Shown: in pieces, positions 5,196 through 16,252 of the stretch
Layout of the letters: every line of letters starts with the position of its first letter
How positions within the stretch are numbered: the first letter of the stretch is position 1
From: Candidatus Peribacterales bacterium
Lineage (GTDB): Bacteria; Patescibacteriota; Gracilibacteria; Peribacterales; Peribacteraceae
Direction of reading: 5' to 3'
DNA: 42,515 nucleotides
Assembly (NCBI GenBank): GCA_020058765.1
Contig: JAGVDM010000009.1
Span: forward strand, 1 to 42,515
Program-made: the position numbers and the translations under genes
The notes under the pieces: generated by a model
What the model saw: the letters and a program-made list of their open reading frames with translations, nothing else
Told to the model about the DNA's origin: nothing
The model's database searches: none

Positions 5196-5687
5196 ATGCA
5201 GCGTCAGTTCACCGCAACGGCATTTGTGATCGACTCCCAGAGCCGTGTGTTGCTGCTGTGGCACAAGAAATTACAACGATGGATGCCACCTGGCGGCCAC
5301 ATAGATCCCAATGAACTACCAGAGGAAACTGCACGCCGTGAGTGCAAAGAGGAAACTGGCCTCGATGTAGAAATCATTGGAGATGCACAGCCAGAACTGT
5401 TCGAAGATGCATCTGCAGAGGGGCGCATGCTCAAGAAGCCCATTGCCTTCATGCTGGAAGAAATCCCTGCATTGGAGGATCGAGGGCAACCGGCACATCA
5501 GCATATGGACTTTCTGTACCTTGCTCGCCCGTTAGATGAGGCACAGGCATTCGATCTGGACCGAAAAGAAGCCGACGATATGCGCTGGTTTACCGCAGAG
5601 GAAGTCGCGGCACTCAGCCCGAAAACGGAGATCTTTAAGAATGTACAGTCCTACATTCTGGACGTACTGGCAAGTGATGTAGGATAG
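5196..5687 (+). CDS. NUDIX hydrolase
   Basis: This 163-aa protein carries a complete Nudix box at about residues 34-56, G-x5-E-x7-RECKEETGL, including the REx2EE metal-binding core. NUDIX enzymes hydrolyse nucleoside diphosphates linked to another moiety (damaged nucleotides, ADP-sugars, dinucleotides); substrate cannot be read from sequence. The N-terminus (QFTATAFVID) and the GGH in PPGGHID fit the MutT-like subgroup. The ATG at 5196 lies right after the divergent redoxin start region, so the two genes share a short promoter interval. The next gene downstream (Rel-EamA fusion) starts 42 bp later on the same strand, so co-transcription is possible. Nothing is truncated. Confidence 0.92.
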   Translation: MQRQFTATAFVIDSQSRVLLLWHKKLQRWMPPGGHIDPNELPEETARRECKEETGLDVEIIGDAQPELFEDASAEGRMLKKPIAFMLEEIPALEDRGQPAHQHMDFLYLARPLDEAQAFDLDRKEADDMRWFTAEEVAALSPKTEIFKNVQSYILDVLASDVG

Positions 5688-5729: not shown

Positions 5730-8700
5730 ATGCGCTGGACGGATCTGAAGTCCCACCTTCGGCACCTCAAAGAAGTCGATCTGAAACGCATTGAAGAAGC
5801 GTTTGAGCTAGGCAAAACCGTGCACGAAGGACAAATGCGTAAATCCGGTGAACCGTACTTCTCTCATCCTGTCGCTGTTGCGGAGATGCTCGCGGAGATG
5901 GATGCAGATGCGGATACCATTATCGCAGCGCTCCTCCACGATTCCATTGAAGATACAAACCTGACACTTCAGAAGATTGAGGCGCAGTTTGGCGAGAGTG
6001 CAGCCGCACTCATCGATGGTCTCACGAAGCTAGAAATGAAGGACTTGCACCAAACTATTACGCTCGACCAGCAGATCGAATCTCTGCGCAAAATTTTCAC
6101 GCTCATGCAGCAGGACGTGCGCATTATGGTGATCAAGCTGGTAGATCGCCTGCACAACATGCAAACGGTGGAGTTCCTTTCGCCAGAGAGACAGAAGGCA
6201 ATGGCAAAGGAAACCATGGAAGTCTACGTGAAGATCGCAGATCGACTATGCATGCAGGAAATCGGCGGACAACTTGAAGCACTTTGCCTTGCTGTACAGG
6301 ATCCAGATCTTCTGAAAAAATTGCTCGCTCGGCGCGAGCGCAACCTGCCACTCGGCAAGAAAATTTCGCATGCGATGGAGAAGAAGATGTCGGAAGATGC
6401 GGGTGCGAAAGTACCGCTGGACGTGCAGTTTGAACCCTCTTCGTGGGAGCGACTGCAAACCCAGATCCGTTCCGGGGAGGGTGCCATTACAGGCGCACCA
6501 CCGTTTAGCGTTGCAGTTGTCACCGATTCCATAGAAAACTGCTACAAAATTATGGGCGTGCTCCACCAATTGTGGCAGCGCGAGATTCTCTCGTTCCAAG
6601 ACTTCATCAACAGCCCTGCAATCAACGGATATCGTGGTCTGCACACGACAGTGATCATGGAAGATGGCACTCGTGTACGCTGCAAGATCCGCACGGAAGA
6701 AATGCATTTCTACGCGAGGAAGGGCATTGTTGCACACTGCTTCGATGGAAAAGCCACAGGGCTGATGGAATACCTCCCTTGGCTCCAGCGCATCAGCCCA
6801 CTCTCTGCAGACACACGGGATCGCAGCGAGAACTTCTGGCAGAGCCTGCAGAGCGACGTACTTGGTGAATCGATCGTGGTGCACGGCCCAGGCGACGAAA
6901 CCGTCATGCTCCCCAACGGGGCTACCGCGCTCGATGCCGCGTTCTATCTGTTTTCAGAAACAGCACTCCGCACCAAGACCATTGTCCTGAACGGTAAAAC
7001 CGTTCCATTTCACACGCCTTTGGAATACGCAGATTCCTTGGAGGCGCACTTCTCTACCAAGCACACCGTAAACCACGAGTGGTTTAGTTGGGTGTCGACC
7101 GGCATGGCAAGAGCCAACATACGACGTGCGCTCGTGGCGCAGCCGATTGCACAGAAAATTGAACAAGGGAAACGGCTGCTGCAGGAAGAGTTCGATCGAT
7201 ACGGCGCCGGCAGCGTAGATAAATACCTCCCACAAGCAGCACGGCTCCTCACTGAACTGAATATTGCAACGGTGAATGACCTACTCGCACGTGTGGCAGA
7301 AGGCGTTGTGAACCCTTCGGACATCTTGGAACGTATCAAAAGTAAGCGAAAGAAAACCAATCGAAGGGTCTTTCCCTTCCTTCCCACGCGCACGCGCACC
7401 AAAAAATACTCGTGCCTGCGTATCCGCATTCAGGGCGATCACAAGGAAGGGCCGAATATCCAAGATACTATTGAACGTCTGAGTAAAAAGAGTGGCGTCA
7501 CTCCAAATTCTCTCGCCATCCGGCAACACAATGACCGCTATACCGCCGCGGTGCAGGTGTGTTCTGACGAAAAAAACAACATAGACCGATTCTTTGCTCA
7601 AATGGAGGCGCAACCAGGCGTGCTACGGATTTCTGCCATGCCATCGGCTCTACTCATTATGCAAATCGGCCTCATACTGCTCTTTATGGTCGCTACATGG
7701 CTGCTGTCCTACTTCTCCATCCAGAGCATTGTCGCACAGAATATCCACACACTGCTGACATACTCGATTGCGTTCCCCATTGTGCTCTGCAACATCATTG
7801 CCTATCGATATATTTCCGATTACGTGGCCATTGCGCGGCGCAGCCGGGTGTTCATTGGCACGGTGCTTTTCGTGAACGCAGTCACCATTGCACTGTTTAC
7901 GGTCAACATGCTGCGCGGAGGTTTGGATATTCTGCATTTGTCACTCTTCTTTCCGCTTACGGTGCTCGTGCTCTCGGGCGTTGCGATCGTATGGATGTCC
8001 GCCAAACGCAATACATTCCTCCCCCTACAAGGCAGCAGCCAACAGGTGCCCAAGATCACCAACTGGAAAAAGCACCAGCAAGAGAAGCGACTCGGGTATC
8101 TCATACGCCTTGGTGCGGTCATCATCTGGGGAATAGAGCCACTCTATATCCGCTATACCATCGTAAACGACATCGCGCCGTCGCTCCGCGTGTTCCTCAA
8201 GGCGGGGGGTGGGCTGCTGCCATCTGTGCTGCTTGGCGTACTGTTTGCATGGGGAATCCAACGCAAACCGCTCTCGTTCAAGCTCCCGTACACAAGCCTG
8301 TTCTTCGTGATCGTGCTTGGTGAGATGGTATTCACCTACCTCATGAATTCGAGCCTCATTTACACGTCGAGCACGAACGTCATTCTGTTGAACAATTTCG
8401 CTCCGGTGATTGCACTCATCATCGCAGCGCTCTTTTGGCGCGAACAAATCCCGTACCTACGGCAGACACGCAACCTTGTCGCCATTTTCCTTCTCTTCAT
8501 TGTAGGAAGCCTTGGGAGCACGCTGCTCTTCTACAACGATATCCGTTTTGCAACGGCCGAGCATATTTGGGGCGACACTCTCGGCATGTTTATGATGATT
8601 ACCGACGTATGTCTGGTGATCGCGATGATTCGATACGTGCAAAAATTGCCCGTAGGGAAAAGTATTGAATTGAACTTCAACATCTTCCTGTTCTCACTCA

Positions 8701-9017
8701 TGATCAGCGCGCCGATTGCGCTGCTTGGAGCGACGAATATATGGCAACTCTCCGGAGCGCAAATACTGTTTGGTATAGGCGCTGGCGTACTAAGCGGATT
8801 CGGCAGAATTATGAACTTCGCCGCATTCCGACGCATCGACGGCTTCCTCGCTTTCTTAATGTTCAACATCTCCATCCTCATCACCTTTACGCTGGAAGTC
8901 TTCTATATTCAGGGTGCATCTTCCACTCCCCTGCTCATGACAGGCGGACTGATGATTATTGCCGCCTCTTGCCTTGCGGAATACATCAATTCGAAATCTG
9001 AACGCGAGAAGATTTGA
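5730..9017 (+). CDS. Rel/SpoT-like (p)ppGpp hydrolase fused to EamA-like membrane transporter
   Basis: This 1095-aa protein has two halves. Residues about 1-640 follow Rel/SpoT order: an HD hydrolase domain with all metal/catalytic residues visible (H46 in SHPV, H70-D71, E74, D139-R-L-H-N143), a synthetase-like domain (about 230-345), a TGS domain (about 380-450) and an ACT-like segment (about 558-638). The synthetase keeps INGYRGLHTTV but lacks the catalytic Asp (Pro or Ala at the aligned position near 257) and the catalytic Glu (R317 in VRCKIRTEEM instead of E in EIQIRT). Residues 640-760 hold several membrane segments, and 788-1085 a roughly ten-helix EamA/DMT-like permease. The likely outcome is a membrane-tethered alarmone hydrolase with no synthesis activity. 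Reading is continuous with no frameshift at the joint. A GAGGAG lies about 15 bp before the ATG, farther than usual. Confidence 0.9.
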   Translation: MRWTDLKSHLRHLKEVDLKRIEEAFELGKTVHEGQMRKSGEPYFSHPVAVAEMLAEMDADADTIIAALLHDSIEDTNLTLQKIEAQFGESAAALIDGLTKLEMKDLHQTITLDQQIESLRKIFTLMQQDVRIMVIKLVDRLHNMQTVEFLSPERQKAMAKETMEVYVKIADRLCMQEIGGQLEALCLAVQDPDLLKKLLARRERNLPLGKKISHAMEKKMSEDAGAKVPLDVQFEPSSWERLQTQIRSGEGAITGAPPFSVAVVTDSIENCYKIMGVLHQLWQREILSFQDFINSPAINGYRGLHTTVIMEDGTRVRCKIRTEEMHFYARKGIVAHCFDGKATGLMEYLPWLQRISPLSADTRDRSENFWQSLQSDVLGESIVVHGPGDETVMLPNGATALDAAFYLFSETALRTKTIVLNGKTVPFHTPLEYADSLEAHFSTKHTVNHEWFSWVSTGMARANIRRALVAQPIAQKIEQGKRLLQEEFDRYGAGSVDKYLPQAARLLTELNIATVNDLLARVAEGVVNPSDILERIKSKRKKTNRRVFPFLPTRTRTKKYSCLRIRIQGDHKEGPNIQDTIERLSKKSGVTPNSLAIRQHNDRYTAAVQVCSDEKNNIDRFFAQMEAQPGVLRISAMPSALLIMQIGLILLFMVATWLLSYFSIQSIVAQNIHTLLTYSIAFPIVLCNIIAYRYISDYVAIARRSRVFIGTVLFVNAVTIALFTVNMLRGGLDILHLSLFFPLTVLVLSGVAIVWMSAKRNTFLPLQGSSQQVPKITNWKKHQQEKRLGYLIRLGAVIIWGIEPLYIRYTIVNDIAPSLRVFLKAGGGLLPSVLLGVLFAWGIQRKPLSFKLPYTSLFFVIVLGEMVFTYLMNSSLIYTSSTNVILLNNFAPVIALIIAALFWREQIPYLRQTRNLVAIFLLFIVGSLGSTLLFYNDIRFATAEHIWGDTLGMFMMITDVCLVIAMIRYVQKLPVGKSIELNFNIFLFSLMISAPIALLGATNIWQLSGAQILFGIGAGVLSGFGRIMNFAAFRRIDGFLAFLMFNISILITFTLEVFYIQGASSTPLLMTGGLMIIAASCLAEYINSKSEREKI

Positions 9018-9782: not shown

Positions 9783-11570
9783 ATGACTCAACCGAACGAA
9801 GACGGCACAGAATCCACCGGCGAGGAGGAGGTGGTCACAGATGGAAAGGAATTGCTCCGTCGAGAAATCGAGGATGCAATGCTGGCTGATCGCCTGAATG
9901 CCCAGCAGCTCAAAGAGCTGCAGAGGCGTGCTGCTGCAGGGCCGTTACGGCATGCACCCGATTTGACCGCATCTACGCACGTACTGGATGAACCTACGGT
10001 GCAAACCGTTCGCGGCCTGGAACATGCCGTTCGGTGCGCGTGTGTGCATTTGAGCAACGTATGCCAGGTATCCGACCATGCGGAAATGGCGCAGAAAGTC
10101 CAAGGAACAGATACGACCGTGACATACATCCACCGCGGAATGGCGACGGAAAAGTCTCAAGAGCTCATGGAGAATCCTGGGTACGCCACGCTGCTTTCGT
10201 ACCATCCGGATTCGTCGGAGGGATACTTCCGTTCTGTTGATCAGTACTCCCGCGCTCATGCATCTCCTACGGAAGGAGGGTCTGTAGCAATGGGAGGCCC
10301 TGGCATCATCACTATGTGCCCAGTGAAGCACCTTGAAGGGTACTATGCAGATCGGGCGAAGTGGCTCGCAGCAAACACGAAGCAGGGCAGCGACCGCGAA
10401 ACACGCCAGCGAAACAACGCAATTGAACAAACCTCAGATACGCCTGTATTCCTCAAAGTGAATGCGAATCAAATGGGGAACACGTGCTCCGACGAAACCA
10501 TGCATAACATTCAGGGGGGCAGAGTGCACGGCGTAATTTTTCACGATATCAGGGATCTGCAGACGTTCGCTGATTGGTATCAGGCACAGCTCGCCGGGCA
10601 ATCAGGCAAAACACGGCAGGAAGGTCACATGAACTTCCGTGAGCCCACACTCATCCTTCGTGGAGAACCCGGCAAAGTTCGCGACACTATCGTAAGTGGC
10701 GATGCTGCAAAGGCGCATGCATTTATGTTCAATAAGCCTCTGTCTGCGCAACAGACTCGCGAGCTGCGCGATGCGCGCGCTGCAATGATGGCACGATCCG
10801 CAGAAGCGGAAAGCGTTCCGAATCCGTTTGCGCCAAATTCCGAATCGCACGCTGGAGGAGATCTGCCCCACCAGCTGAAGGTGGGTGTGGTGCACGTACA
10901 GGGAGCCGCCCGATTGGAAGCAGCAATGATTGCACAGGCATCTAGAAACGTACCGGGTATGTCGGTACAACTTGCCCTGATCCAAACCCGGCAACAGCTG
11001 GAACACTGGAACCCCGATGCATTGGTACTTCCTGGCGGCTGGCACTTCTTGCAGCACAATATGCAGGAGCACCCAGAAATCGATATCAACGGCGTTTTGG
11101 GTGAAATTGTGCAAGCGCAACGAATGCACATCTTGGGCTCCTGCGCGGGTGCAATCTTGATGCGGCAGCCAGATACTGTCGCCAAGAAGAGTGAAGGATG
11201 CGTACCAGGAACAGCACTTGGCATTCTGCCCTACCGCGTACGAAACAATGCCCGGTCAGGCATGCACCCCACACAATTCTTGATCCATGGCGCGCAGGGG
11301 GAACAGTGGACCAACCTGCCGAGTGCGCTCTACGTATCAGCTCCGCAGCTGCTCCCGGAGGAACAGGCGGACCTGAAAATCATCGCACAGACCAATGAGG
11401 AAATTTACGGCGTAATACAACGTTCAGGTCACAATGCGCCCGTGTATGCCGCAACCGCGCTGCATAACCTCCTACCGTACGTCTACTGGTTGCATGAAAT
11501 TCACGAAAACCTGGCAGTGCAGCGACTACGCGGTAAGCACGGGGGCGTGGAGGGGAACATCCAAAGTTAA
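9783..11570 (+). CDS. Unknown N-terminal domain fused to PdxT-like glutaminase-fold domain
   Basis: This 595-aa protein has an acidic N-terminal tail, an unknown domain (about 70-280) and a C-terminal class I glutamine-amidotransferase fold (about 365-575) closest in pattern to PdxT/SNO: KVGVVHVQGA, ALVLPGG, then the nucleophile elbow GSCAGAILM with Cys454. The His561 in ATALHN aligns with the catalytic His of PdxT. The following Glu of the usual HPE motif is not conserved, and the LPGGEST motif has become LPGGWHF. The N-terminal domain contains YIHRGM and a later GYFRSVDQYSRAHA, faintly reminiscent of ADP-ribosyltransferase-like folds, but I cannot establish that. No pdxS is nearby, so a normal pyridoxal-phosphate synthase role is unlikely to be directly supported here. 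Confidence 0.72.
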   Translation: MTQPNEDGTESTGEEEVVTDGKELLRREIEDAMLADRLNAQQLKELQRRAAAGPLRHAPDLTASTHVLDEPTVQTVRGLEHAVRCACVHLSNVCQVSDHAEMAQKVQGTDTTVTYIHRGMATEKSQELMENPGYATLLSYHPDSSEGYFRSVDQYSRAHASPTEGGSVAMGGPGIITMCPVKHLEGYYADRAKWLAANTKQGSDRETRQRNNAIEQTSDTPVFLKVNANQMGNTCSDETMHNIQGGRVHGVIFHDIRDLQTFADWYQAQLAGQSGKTRQEGHMNFREPTLILRGEPGKVRDTIVSGDAAKAHAFMFNKPLSAQQTRELRDARAAMMARSAEAESVPNPFAPNSESHAGGDLPHQLKVGVVHVQGAARLEAAMIAQASRNVPGMSVQLALIQTRQQLEHWNPDALVLPGGWHFLQHNMQEHPEIDINGVLGEIVQAQRMHILGSCAGAILMRQPDTVAKKSEGCVPGTALGILPYRVRNNARSGMHPTQFLIHGAQGEQWTNLPSALYVSAPQLLPEEQADLKIIAQTNEEIYGVIQRSGHNAPVYAATALHNLLPYVYWLHEIHENLAVQRLRGKHGGVEGNIQS

Positions 11571-12442: not shown

Positions 12443-15400
12443 ATGCACATGTTCGATCCGGTCGACCCCAAACAGGCCCTGCCCGACGTGGAGAATGGCA
12501 TTCTCCAGTATTGGAAGGAAGAAGACACCTTCAAGCGCAGCATCAAGCAGCGCTGGAAGGGCTCCGGCGACCTGCTCGATGGCAAACCTGGCACAGGCGA
12601 CGATTTCTCGTTTTACGATGGACCGCCCTTTGCCACCGGCCTGCCCCACTACGGCCACCTGCTCGCTGGCACTATTAAAGACGTCATCCCGCGCTACCAA
12701 ACCATGCGCGGCAAGTGCGTACAGCGCCGATTTGGTTGGGACTGCCACGGCCTGCCAGTGGAAAACCTCGTAGAGAAGGAGCACGGAATCAAAGATAAGG
12801 CGCAGATCGAAGCGATGGGTGTTGCTGCGTTCAATACGCTCTGTCGTAATTCCGTCCAGCGGTATACAAATGAATGGAAGCAAGTGGTGGAACGCATGGG
12901 TCGCTGGGTAGACATGGACTGGGACTACCGCACCATGGATCCGGAGTATATGGAGAGTATTTGGTGGGTGGTGGGCGAGCTCCACAAGAAGCAGCTGCTC
13001 TACCGCGGCCATCGACCAATGCACGTCTGCCCACGGTGTGTTACCCCACTCAGCAACTTCGAAGTCACACAGGGGTACAAAGATGTCACCGACCAGTCTG
13101 TGATCGCAAAATTTAAACTACTTGATGAATTGCCTTTGATTAAACCAAAAAAAAGTGGGCTTTCGAAGTATCCAGTTTTCATTTTGGCATGGACTACGAC
13201 ACCGTGGACGCTGCCAGGCAATTTAATGCTCGCAGTCGGACAAAGCATTCGCTATGCAGTAGTCCTTCATGAAGAAGCTTTATACGTTGTAGCAAAAAAC
13301 AAATTAGCAGAAGTATTCAAAGATAAAGAGCACGAAGTAGTCATGGAATACAGAGGTGGCACTGAAGGACTTGTTGGTCTCAAATACGAACCGCTCTTCC
13401 CGTACTTTGCCGAGAAGTACAAAGACGCCTTCCGCATTGTTGCGGGAGATTTCGTATCTACGGAAGACGGAACGGGCATTGTGCACATTGCTCCGGGTTT
13501 CGGTGAGGACGACTTCCAAATAGGCAAACAAGAAGAGCTAGAACTACTGCAACACGTCACCATGGACGGCAAGTTCGTGGATACCGTGACGGACTTTGCC
13601 GGGCAAGATGTAAAGCCGATCGATGACCCACGCAAGACCGATCAAAAGATAATCGCATGGCTGGAAGAACGCGGACTCGTATTCAGCAAAGAAACCTACA
13701 AGCACAGCTATCCGCATTGCTGGCGATGCGACTCCCCTCTGCTTAATTACGCCACAAGCTCGTGGTTCGTGAGCGTGGAAAAACTCAAAGAGAACCTCCT
13801 CAAGAATAATGCGAAAACGGAGTGGGTGCCGGGTCACATTCGTGATGGTCGCTTTGGAAAGTGGCTGGAGAACGCTCGCGACTGGGCAATCAGCCGCAAT
13901 CGCTACTGGGGCACTCCCCTCCCTGTGTGGATCAACGAGAAGACGGGAGATATGGAGGTGGTTGAGAGTCGCGATGAACTGCTGCGCAGAGCTCCGCAGC
14001 GCTTCACAAAAGTCACATTTGTGCGCCACGGTGAGAGCGAAGGGAACTTGATCCCTATCTACCAAGGCAATGCACCCGGTACCGACCTTACGAAAACAGG
14101 AAAAGCCCAAGCAGCAGCCACAGGTGAACTTCTCTCTACACAAGAAGTACGCGCAGTTTACGCATCACCGCTTGCAAGAGCGCATCAGACGGCGCTTGCG
14201 ATTGCCGAGCATTCTGGTGGCAATGTGGTGACGGACGAACGCCTGCGCGAAGTGCAATTTGGCGAATACGAAGGCAAGACAGTGGATTTTGATGACCTCG
14301 CGTTTGTGAAAGCCCGACGCGCCCACAAGTTGAAGGAAAACAGCCCCGAGAGCATCTATCACTTTCCGGGTATGGAAACGTGGGACGAAGTGCAGGATCG
14401 GCTGTCTACCTTCCTGCAGGAGGTGCTCCCCAAACATCGCGGCGAGCATATTGTAGTGGTAACACATGCAGACGTTTTGCAGAACGCGAAGCACTTCTTT
14501 AGTAAGGAGAATCCGGGCAAGATTTCTCATCAGCCCTACCCGCGCTACGCCGAGCCGCACGTGTTCTACTGGGATCATGAGCGAGGAGCACAGATGGATT
14601 TGCACAAGGACACGGTGGATGACATTACATGGAAAGATGCCGAGGGCTCCGTGTACCGCCGCATTCCCGAAGTGCTCGATTGCTGGTTCGAAAGCGGCTC
14701 CATGCCCTATGCACAATCGCATTATCCCTTCAGCCACGCAGCCCAAGAGTTGCCGCCTGGCTTCCCTGCGGACTTCATTGCAGAAGGCGTGGATCAAACA
14801 CGCGGCTGGTTTTACACACTCGCCGTGCTCGCAACCGCACTGTTCGATAAGCCAGCATTTAGGCACTGCGTGGTGAACGGCATCGTGCTCGCCGAGGACG
14901 GTAAGAAGATGAGCAAGCGCCTCAAGAACTACCCCGAACCAACGGAGATCGTAGAGAAGTACGGTGCGGATGCCATTCGCTTTACATTGATGCGCTCGCC
15001 TGCCGTTCGCGGTGAGGATCTGCGTATGAGTGAGAAACTGGTGGAAGAAAGCCTGCGGCAAGTGCTGCTCCCCCTCTGGAATACCTACAGTTTCTTTGTG
15101 ACCTACGCGAACGCAGCGCAATTCGAAGCGATAGAAAATCGTCGTCACTCCGTACATCCACTGGATCAGTGGATCCGGACTGAAGTGCAAGATTTGGTAA
15201 ACCGCATGACAGAGCAACTCGATCGCTACGACCTCTCTGCCACGTGTGCCGAGTTGGGCGATACGATCGATGCGCTCACTAACTGGTACATTCGCCTCTC
15301 GCGACGCCGCTTTGCGGGTAAGGCCGAACGCGGTAGTGCGAGCGAAGTGACCCGAATCGACACGAAAGATGATGACCAGCTCGATGCGCTCCACACACTG

Positions 15401-16252
15401 CATGATGTGCTCCTGACGATTTCGCAGGTGCTCGCACCCTTCTGCCCATTCATTACCGAGGCGATCTACCTCAACCTCGTTTCCGAAGAGCATGGATCGA
15501 TCCACCTTACCGATTGGCCGCAAACGCAGCCCCTCACCAAAGAGCAGCAAACGATGCTGCAGAAGACGACAATGCTCCGCACGATCGTGTCGCTCGGCCT
15601 GTCTGTCCGCAGTGACCAGAAAATCAAAGTGCGCCAGCCGCTGGCTTCGGCCACTATTGCCGTTCCACCGGCTTTTGTGAATATTACACTTGGCGAAGAG
15701 GATAAAAAACTCCTTACAGAAGAGCTAAACGTGAAAGAACTTGTATTCGTAGATGATCCCGGTGCGCTGGCCACAGCAGTCGCTTTGGTAGATGCGCGCA
15801 AAGTTGGCCCACGCCTTGGAGGACGCGTGCAGGAAATCATCCGTGCCGGCAAAGAAGGGAACTTCACGGTGAAGGAAAACGGCATGATCCTGATCCTGGA
15901 CGAAGAGTTGAGTGCAGAAGAAGCACAAATCGTCTATCGCGGTGCGGAAGGCCAGAACGTTGCAGCGGATAAGGGCATTGTTGTGAGCATGGATACCACG
16001 GTGAGCCCAGCACTCGAACAAGAAGGCCTCGCGCGCGATGTTATCCGCGCTGTGCAGCGTCTGCGTAAAGATGCGGGGCTCTCATTCACAGATGAAATTT
16101 CTCTCGTGGTTATGGGTGCAGATGAAATGATGCAGCAACATGGAACAATGATCGCGCGCGAAACACGATCCGTACTGCAGCCAAACGACGGAGAAGAGCA
16201 CACCATCGATGTGGAAGGGCACAAGATGTCCATTCGCTTCATGAAGCGCTAA
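12443..16252 (+). CDS. ileS: Isoleucyl-tRNA synthetase with inserted histidine-phosphatase domain
   Basis: IleRS charges tRNA-Ile with isoleucine and edits misactivated valine. The 1269-aa product has the class I signature PHYGH (His69-Tyr-Gly-His72), the WDCHGLP segment, a CP1 editing region, the late KKMSKR motif (K821-R826) and the anticodon-binding C-terminus. Between NRYWGTPLPVW and the RIPEVLDCWFESGSMPYAQ segment, where IleRS normally has only a short loop, about 195 residues (roughly 520-715) form a complete histidine-phosphatase/phosphoglycerate-mutase-like domain: FVRHGESEGN with His529, the SPLARAHQTA segment, and VVTHADV with His675. Both catalytic His are present, so activity is plausible; its substrate is unknown. 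The reading frame is unbroken through both joints. The alternative ATG at 12449 would change only two residues. Confidence 0.95.
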   Translation: MHMFDPVDPKQALPDVENGILQYWKEEDTFKRSIKQRWKGSGDLLDGKPGTGDDFSFYDGPPFATGLPHYGHLLAGTIKDVIPRYQTMRGKCVQRRFGWDCHGLPVENLVEKEHGIKDKAQIEAMGVAAFNTLCRNSVQRYTNEWKQVVERMGRWVDMDWDYRTMDPEYMESIWWVVGELHKKQLLYRGHRPMHVCPRCVTPLSNFEVTQGYKDVTDQSVIAKFKLLDELPLIKPKKSGLSKYPVFILAWTTTPWTLPGNLMLAVGQSIRYAVVLHEEALYVVAKNKLAEVFKDKEHEVVMEYRGGTEGLVGLKYEPLFPYFAEKYKDAFRIVAGDFVSTEDGTGIVHIAPGFGEDDFQIGKQEELELLQHVTMDGKFVDTVTDFAGQDVKPIDDPRKTDQKIIAWLEERGLVFSKETYKHSYPHCWRCDSPLLNYATSSWFVSVEKLKENLLKNNAKTEWVPGHIRDGRFGKWLENARDWAISRNRYWGTPLPVWINEKTGDMEVVESRDELLRRAPQRFTKVTFVRHGESEGNLIPIYQGNAPGTDLTKTGKAQAAATGELLSTQEVRAVYASPLARAHQTALAIAEHSGGNVVTDERLREVQFGEYEGKTVDFDDLAFVKARRAHKLKENSPESIYHFPGMETWDEVQDRLSTFLQEVLPKHRGEHIVVVTHADVLQNAKHFFSKENPGKISHQPYPRYAEPHVFYWDHERGAQMDLHKDTVDDITWKDAEGSVYRRIPEVLDCWFESGSMPYAQSHYPFSHAAQELPPGFPADFIAEGVDQTRGWFYTLAVLATALFDKPAFRHCVVNGIVLAEDGKKMSKRLKNYPEPTEIVEKYGADAIRFTLMRSPAVRGEDLRMSEKLVEESLRQVLLPLWNTYSFFVTYANAAQFEAIENRRHSVHPLDQWIRTEVQDLVNRMTEQLDRYDLSATCAELGDTIDALTNWYIRLSRRRFAGKAERGSASEVTRIDTKDDDQLDALHTLHDVLLTISQVLAPFCPFITEAIYLNLVSEEHGSIHLTDWPQTQPLTKEQQTMLQKTTMLRTIVSLGLSVRSDQKIKVRQPLASATIAVPPAFVNITLGEEDKKLLTEELNVKELVFVDDPGALATAVALVDARKVGPRLGGRVQEIIRAGKEGNFTVKENGMILILDEELSAEEAQIVYRGAEGQNVAADKGIVVSMDTTVSPALEQEGLARDVIRAVQRLRKDAGLSFTDEISLVVMGADEMMQQHGTMIARETRSVLQPNDGEEHTIDVEGHKMSIRFMKR

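Follow-up and report, generated by a model that had tools for sequence, protein, structure and literature searches.

A predicted hydrolase-only RelA/SpoT homologue fused to a DMT-type transporter domain, with repeated exchange of the membrane tail, in Candidatus Peribacteria

It has long been asked how the hydrolase side of stringent control learns of nutrient supply, and in the known RelA/SpoT homologues (RSHs) starvation is mostly sensed via the ribosome or soluble partners. A gene of a Candidatus Peribacterales bacterium with a 1.17 Mb genome raises this question again, as it joins a Rel/SpoT-like enzyme and an EamA-like membrane region. What would such a protein do to (p)ppGpp, and what could its membrane half contribute? 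The stretch analysed here (the window) is the entire 42,515-nucleotide contig JAGVDM010000009.1 of assembly GCA_020058765.1 (G000:C8 in our numbering). The gene (5730..9017, + strand) begins with an ATG and is open over 1095 codons without a frameshift or internal stop, so that the single ORF of 1095 aa described in a first-pass annotation of the window is uninterrupted. On ORF and Pfam evidence it is predicted to encode a hydrolase-only long RSH followed by four transmembrane (TM) helices and an EamA/DMT (drug/metabolite transporter) domain.

The protein has the domain order of a long RSH, i.e., HD, synthetase (SYNTH) fold, TGS, helical and ACT, the last identified by structure. Pfam matches over the gathering cut-offs were obtained for HD_4 (PF13328, 134.8 bits, aa 24-173), RelA_SpoT (56.9 bits, aa 261-337), RelA_AH_RIS (PF19296, 42.4 bits) and EamA (PF00892, 39.8 bits vs. 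a cut-off of 28.2, aa 788-908). The spoT_relA model (TIGR00691) gave clear homology over aa 24-546, including TGS (394.7 bits, E 7.5e-118), at a score below its curated cut-off of 499 bits, and among solved structures, B. subtilis Rel (E 4e-75) and further long RSHs were closest to the first 543 residues. On the + strand, the HD hydrolase domain (5799..6248) is followed by a pseudo-synthetase domain delimited by alignments (aa 195-343, 6312..6758), a divergent TGS domain (aa 375-445, 6852..7064; PF02824 13.7 bits, under the cut-off, and covered by RSH alignments), a helical (AH/RIS) region (aa 455-575, 7092..7454) and an ACT-like domain (aa 556-637, 7395..7640) of beta-alpha-beta-beta-alpha-beta topology (model m41ad7e5449f9; 3ibw, Z 11.6). 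The helical region lacks zinc-finger cysteines, and no Cys cluster of a ribosome-binding zinc finger was found within aa 500-640, where C562 and C611 are the only cysteines. The membrane half consists of a four-helix block (aa 638-761, 7641..8012; model helices 640-661, 670-697, 706-729 and 737-761) and a ten-helix EamA/DMT domain (aa 785-1094, 8082..9011).

Is the enzyme half active? Residues H46, H70, D71, E74, D75, D139 and N143 occupy the catalytic positions of active Rel enzymes in alignments, and the HD site, earlier read as intact from H46, H70-D71, E74, D139 and N143, was confirmed as such. These residues are invariant in nine aligned fusions and in a larger set of fused relatives, and the full-length model matched Rel catalytic domains with Z 33.5 and MESH1 with Z 18. 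The synthetase site has been lost. In ungapped phmmer alignments with B. subtilis Rel (6yxa) and M. tuberculosis Rel (5xnx), the catalytic Asp falls on P257 (6498-6500) and the catalytic Glu of E-V/I-Q-I-R-T on R317 (6678-6680). Both losses had been proposed in the first-pass annotation and stand, but that description was too narrow, as the RxKxxYS motif is also gone: the nucleotide-binding motif RxKHxYSIYRKM is replaced by EPSSWERLQTQI, with EPSSWE at the RxKxxYS position. A larger MAFFT alignment introduces a gap that moves the Asp column by one, to P258; because P257 and P258 are both non-acidic, the loss of the Asp holds. R-C-K-I-R-T was present in 9/9 fusions of the first alignment where active enzymes have E-V/I-Q-I-R-T, and in every relative of the architecture termed type 1 below the synthetase D and E are lost. 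Purifying selection acts along the chain: dN/dS was 0.04-0.27 wherever estimable for close pairs similar along their length, EamA and pseudo-synthetase included, so neither half is decaying. From these sequence features, the fusion protein is predicted to be of the hydrolase-only type, able to degrade but not to make (p)ppGpp.

The earlier suggestion to look for a separate synthetase led to two predicted ones. RSH loci number exactly three in this genome, and an HD_4 search of it revealed no hydrolase domain beyond these. P0001, a RelA-like protein that has TGS and the Cys pattern of a zinc finger, and P0002 (~500 aa) both retain the synthetase Asp, Glu and RxK motifs and have a broken HD site; the same pattern was seen in 17 proteins related to P0001 or P0002 that other family genomes encode. 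Synthesis and hydrolysis are thus split among proteins, and the window protein is the sole predicted alarmone hydrolase of its genome. This arrangement resembles that of A. baumannii SpoT, a SpoT[Hs] of Moraxellaceae (PMC9974481, 7qpr; Z 28.2 to our full-length model), in which a working HD domain (predicted in the fusion) is combined with a pseudo-synthetase lacking the catalytic residues (Asp to Ser and Gln to Thr in Acinetobacter) and which is partnered by a synthetase-only RelA, as the fusion is by separate synthetases. The hydrolase-only features of SpoT[Hs] are all present in the fusion, with HD kept and SYNTH lost in a long RSH and the synthetase separate in the genome. Unlike the fusion, A. 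baumannii SpoT is soluble, keeps the zinc-finger domain and ACT/RRM, has no membrane part and belongs to a separate lineage with an independent loss of synthesis; the fusion protein lies outside the Moraxellaceae clade, and its SpoT[Hs]-type state was reached by convergence. Bifunctional Rel proteins (B. subtilis 6yxa, S. equisimilis 1vj7) share the fusion's order of HD, SYNTH, TGS, helical and ACT domains and 30% identity in the catalytic half, but have an active synthetase, a ribosome-binding zinc finger and no TM part.

The membrane half was modelled with AlphaFold2. For aa 545-1095 (pLDDT 76, pTM 0.73) the model showed the ACT-like domain, four TM helices and ten more helices, and the ten-helix part gave full-length matches to DMT transporters, namely 5i20 (Z 25.8), LicB (Z 24.8) and nucleotide-sugar and triose-phosphate translocators (Z 22). 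In the full-length model (pLDDT 81) the match to 5i20 had Z 25.9 over 278 residues; LicB was matched by the DMT domain with Z 24.9. The EamA-like region recognized at first as polytopic is thus a complete 10-TM DMT fold in the models; neither the ACT domain nor the separate 4-TM block had been recognized in the first-pass annotation. Known EamA/DMT transporters (5i20, the choline importer LicB 7b0k and nucleotide-sugar transporters) have the same 10-helix fold (Z 22-26), yet the fusion's DMT part shares only 11-14% identity with them and sits behind an RSH and a 4-TM block. Predicted cytosolic loops contain 21 Lys/Arg residues and outer loops 2; by this positive-inside count the RSH head and the C terminus are cytosolic, which agrees with the membrane tethering proposed earlier and places the enzyme on the cytosolic side. 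A chance TM region or a false EamA call was ruled out on the basis of the DMT structural matches and of the homology between EamA halves from different fusion architectures.

These architectures differ in their membrane parts. Type 1 comprises RSH + EamA (~920 aa), type 3, RSH + 4TM + EamA (1091-1164 aa), and type 2, found in other families of the class, RSH + 4TM with the synthetase motifs mostly intact. The 4-TM blocks of types 2 and 3 are homologous (hhalign E 2.5e-8, 198 columns including the ACT domain), and remote homology links the EamA half of type 1 to that of type 3 (E 7e-9). The RSH-4TM proteins (L070, L071, L082 and L083) thus share the ACT domain and 4-TM block with the window protein, but mostly retain the synthetase motifs and lack EamA; no description of them was found in the literature searched. 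Another C-terminal attachment was noted at L080:2794-6114, where a bifunctional RSH with a 4-TM block carries ~350 non-transmembrane residues without a Pfam match. At least 46 of the 74 genomes of the family (Candidatus Peribacteria) have a fusion, with a type-1 head in 39 (window included) and a type-3 head in 15, as counted by type from the RSH-head matches listed together with membrane-half matches. Outside the family, distant fusion-length matches with open frames of 941-956 aa occur in families f5, f6 and f15 of the class; outside the class there was no close A1 match. Among 380 genomes of the phylum, neither a type-3 membrane half outside the family nor a standalone relative of it (at E 1e-8) was detected, and each full-length type-3 membrane half detected was fused. 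Some 19 genomes, of which nearly all lack a fusion, have instead an RSH of roughly 630-750 aa. The four of these that were read have no TM helix, an intact HD and a lost synthetase, and these soluble proteins stop at the ACT domain, after which the fusions carry their tail; in the light of these relatives, the fusion seems to be an elaboration of a pre-existing hydrolase-only RSH. Stand-alone small HD proteins (open frames 205-261 aa) were also seen, at G054:C4:171605-172078, G184:C11:139137-139592 and G161:C10:14091-14534; G054, which lacks a fusion and has no soluble hydrolase-only RSH listed, has one of them.

How did the window gene arise? Its two halves have different closest relatives. 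In HD+SYNTH it is 49-59% identical to type 1 and 32-37% to type 3 and to the type-3-like protein of genome G222 (locus L105), while in EamA it is 66% identical to the G222 protein, 36-46% to type 3 and 13-17% to type 1. Over the whole protein, G222 shows the same ACT+4TM+EamA layout and 57% identity. In the head tree the window gene falls with type 1 (100/100); its grouping with G222 was rejected by the approximately unbiased (AU) test (p 0.0004). The EamA tree places it inside type 3 (100/100); on this alignment, the AU test of window gene + type 1 gave p 0.09, which does not decide the matter, and the type-3 placement rests on branch support and identity (40-46% vs. 11-16%). A single-lineage history was rejected from the head test and the EamA placement. 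Judged from its sequence, the gene is a natural mosaic of the hydrolase head of one lineage and the membrane half of another. The change-over lies at ~aa 460-520 (7107..7289, + strand), where the identity scan and the trees indicate a type-1-like 5' side and a G222/type-3-like 3' side. Since the G222 genome holds both a type-1 gene and the type-3-like gene, the parental types are able to coexist in a single genome. A phage-type integrase gene (L105:8656-9579) lies directly 5' of the G222 type-3-like fusion and is a possible agent of cassette movement.

Exchange of the membrane tail is not confined to the window. The heads of L004, L008 and L010 are 84% identical; the tail of L010 is 20-21% identical to the other two, and those of L004 and L008 share 36%. 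Similarly, L009 and L047 have heads 78% and tails 22% identical, and L074 and L111 heads 82% and tails 35% identical, with identity dropping in these pairs from ~aa 450 onward. Trees of the two parts disagree: L004+L008+L010 form a clade in the head tree (100/98.5; L009+L010 rejected, AU p 1.7e-4), whereas L009+L010 form a clade in the tail tree (98/96; L004+L008+L010 rejected, AU p 3e-64). Relatives of the window gene thus keep the hydrolase head and repeatedly exchange the transporter tail. Neither this exchange nor the mosaic of two lineages had been noticed in the first-pass annotation. In the eight loci read, a convergent downstream gene tracks the tail type and not the head. Downstream of type-1 fusions this gene (- strand) belongs to at least two fast-evolving families without a Pfam match, one at L004:5379-6989, L005:8757-10265 and L008:8753-10276, the other at L009:8748-9794, L010:8776-9843 and L011:8731-9825, as if exchanged with the tail.

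The neighbours of the window gene follow the same division. Its 5' synteny (uvrA - phosphoesterase - AhpC/TSA - NUDIX) is that of type-1 loci, and the NUDIX hydrolase gene (5196..5687, + strand; PF00293 72.7 bits), 42 bases 5' of the fusion, adjoins it in 8/8 type-1 loci read, with 62-68% identity. Alarmone degradation is an activity of some Nudix enzymes, and this gene may act in the same pathway as the fusion. Downstream, the gene at 9783..11570 (+ strand) has relatives beside type-3 genes in L073, L078 and L105 (24-26% identity). Its 595-aa product has a C-terminal class-I glutaminase-like region with a GSCAGA motif and a weak SNO match (17.4 bits, under the cut-off). Farther on, the isoleucyl-tRNA synthetase gene (12443-16252) contains a complete inserted histidine-phosphatase domain (PF00300 128.6 bits, aa 525-682).

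With a signalling enzyme and a transporter fold on a single chain, the protein has the architecture of a transceptor. We infer that it is a membrane-embedded, transceptor-like hydrolase-only long RSH in which a solute at the DMT domain gates (p)ppGpp hydrolysis, and give this reading, in which hydrolysis, transport, ligand and the coupling with its direction are all deduced, a probability of about 0.5. The cytosolic head would bind (p)ppGpp and take off the 3'-pyrophosphate. Its pseudo-synthetase, TGS, helical and ACT domains could pass conformational changes on to the HD domain, with the pseudo-synthetase and Core as relays, the role measured for them in Acinetobacter SpoT (PMC9974481). The C-terminal DMT domain, linked via the 4-TM block, would bind or transport a small solute, and its engagement would pass through the 4-TM/ACT region, the usual regulatory end of RSHs, to the HD domain, such that the DMT conformational cycle sets the hydrolysis rate. 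In a supplied cell the alarm raised by the two synthetase-only RSHs would then be erased, and in a starved cell it would stay; tail exchange on a conserved head would let one output answer different solutes. This reading is supported by the invariant HD residues, the status of sole predicted hydrolase, the complete DMT fold with invariant polar residues (many N, T, D, R and E positions are invariant across 13 type-3 sequences), purifying selection on both halves and heads that stay constant while tails change. Precedents are Ks-Amt5, a transporter-kinase chain that senses without transporting (PMC5764959), CbrA, in which histidine is transported and the SLC5 domain modulates the kinase (PMC7096432), and the regulatory pseudo-synthetase of PMC9974481. 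Like the fusion, the former two combine a whole transporter fold and a cytosolic signalling enzyme in one chain; they are, however, histidine kinases with Amt or SLC5 domains, whereas the fusion is a second-messenger hydrolase with a DMT domain.

Several observations weigh against solute gating. The pTM of the full-length model was 0.49, so the placement of the head relative to the membrane half is not fixed by it. Searched as a profile against PDB sequences, the membrane half gave no match, and NCBIfam gave none either; the substrate cannot be named from sequence, and its assignment was dropped. Many family members have a soluble hydrolase-only RSH, and the membrane tail is thus not essential to the clade. 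Finally, conservation of the type-1 EamA tail is low, down to ~25% vs. 62% for HD, which a loosely constrained anchor also fits. The membrane half could then serve only to hold the hydrolase at the membrane, close to ribosomes engaged in membrane-protein synthesis or at a distance from the synthetases, with a DMT domain that neither senses nor gates hydrolysis; in other families of the class, a bifunctional RSH is attached to the membrane through a 4-TM block only, with no transporter. Yet one TM helix would suffice for an anchor, and a 10-helix fold with invariant buried polar residues under purifying selection goes far beyond such needs. In type 3, moreover, EamA (48% vs. 55% for HD) reaches the conservation of the synthetase and TGS domains, and we regard the anchor as unlikely. 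Information might also flow in reverse: the RSH head would sense the alarmone and switch the transporter open or shut, and hydrolysis would terminate the signal. An intact, predicted (p)ppGpp-binding HD domain and a constant head on swapped tails, as for a common alarmone switch on different transporters, would fit this. A sensor, however, needs no fully conserved catalytic site, and that the genome has no other predicted hydrolase speaks for the importance of catalysis as such, which makes this direction rather unlikely.

In small genomes, enzymes that are functionally linked yet independent are often fused, and here the tail is exchangeable, so the two halves might be joined for co-expression only and act independently. 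We consider this highly improbable, as the order and junction are constant over deep divergence and the tail always follows ACT, the usual regulatory input of RSHs, where the soluble hydrolase-only RSHs of relatives end. A mosaic gene whose halves have different closest relatives could, lastly, be two genes joined by an assembly or binning artefact. Such a join, or a frameshift, suspected at 7600-7640, was rejected: the architecture recurs in G222 and many other genomes, similar mosaics occur in independent assemblies, GC3 (third-position GC) and codon use are unbroken through junction, gene and flanks, ileS is single, no orphan gene halves are left in the genome, and the assembly is 99.3% complete with 0.11% contamination. 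An artefact is hardly credible.

The earlier interpretation is partly supported, also as regards novelty. It named no described system with this arrangement. Hydrolase-only long RSHs, which it had missed, are on record (A. baumannii SpoT, PMC9974481), as are DMT transporters and transporter-kinase fusions. In the open-licence papers searched, with most subscription journals outside, nothing was found on an RSH-transporter fusion or on tail exchange on a constant hydrolase head; searches on RSHs in Peribacteria returned nothing relevant, and almost nothing on (p)ppGpp in these bacteria with ~1.2 Mb genomes. A transporter with an in-built hydrolase would, if true, wire solute directly to the level of (p)ppGpp and would widen the transceptor idea from kinases to alarmone turnover. 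The L004, L008 and L010 pairs, with near-identical heads and unrelated tails, are natural tools that make the coupling directly testable. More tentatively, the fusions may represent a new class of transporter-gated second-messenger enzyme, a conserved head with recombination-swapped DMT tails, each with its neighbouring gene, that would reset which external solute ends the stringent response in very small, probably host- or community-dependent bacteria.

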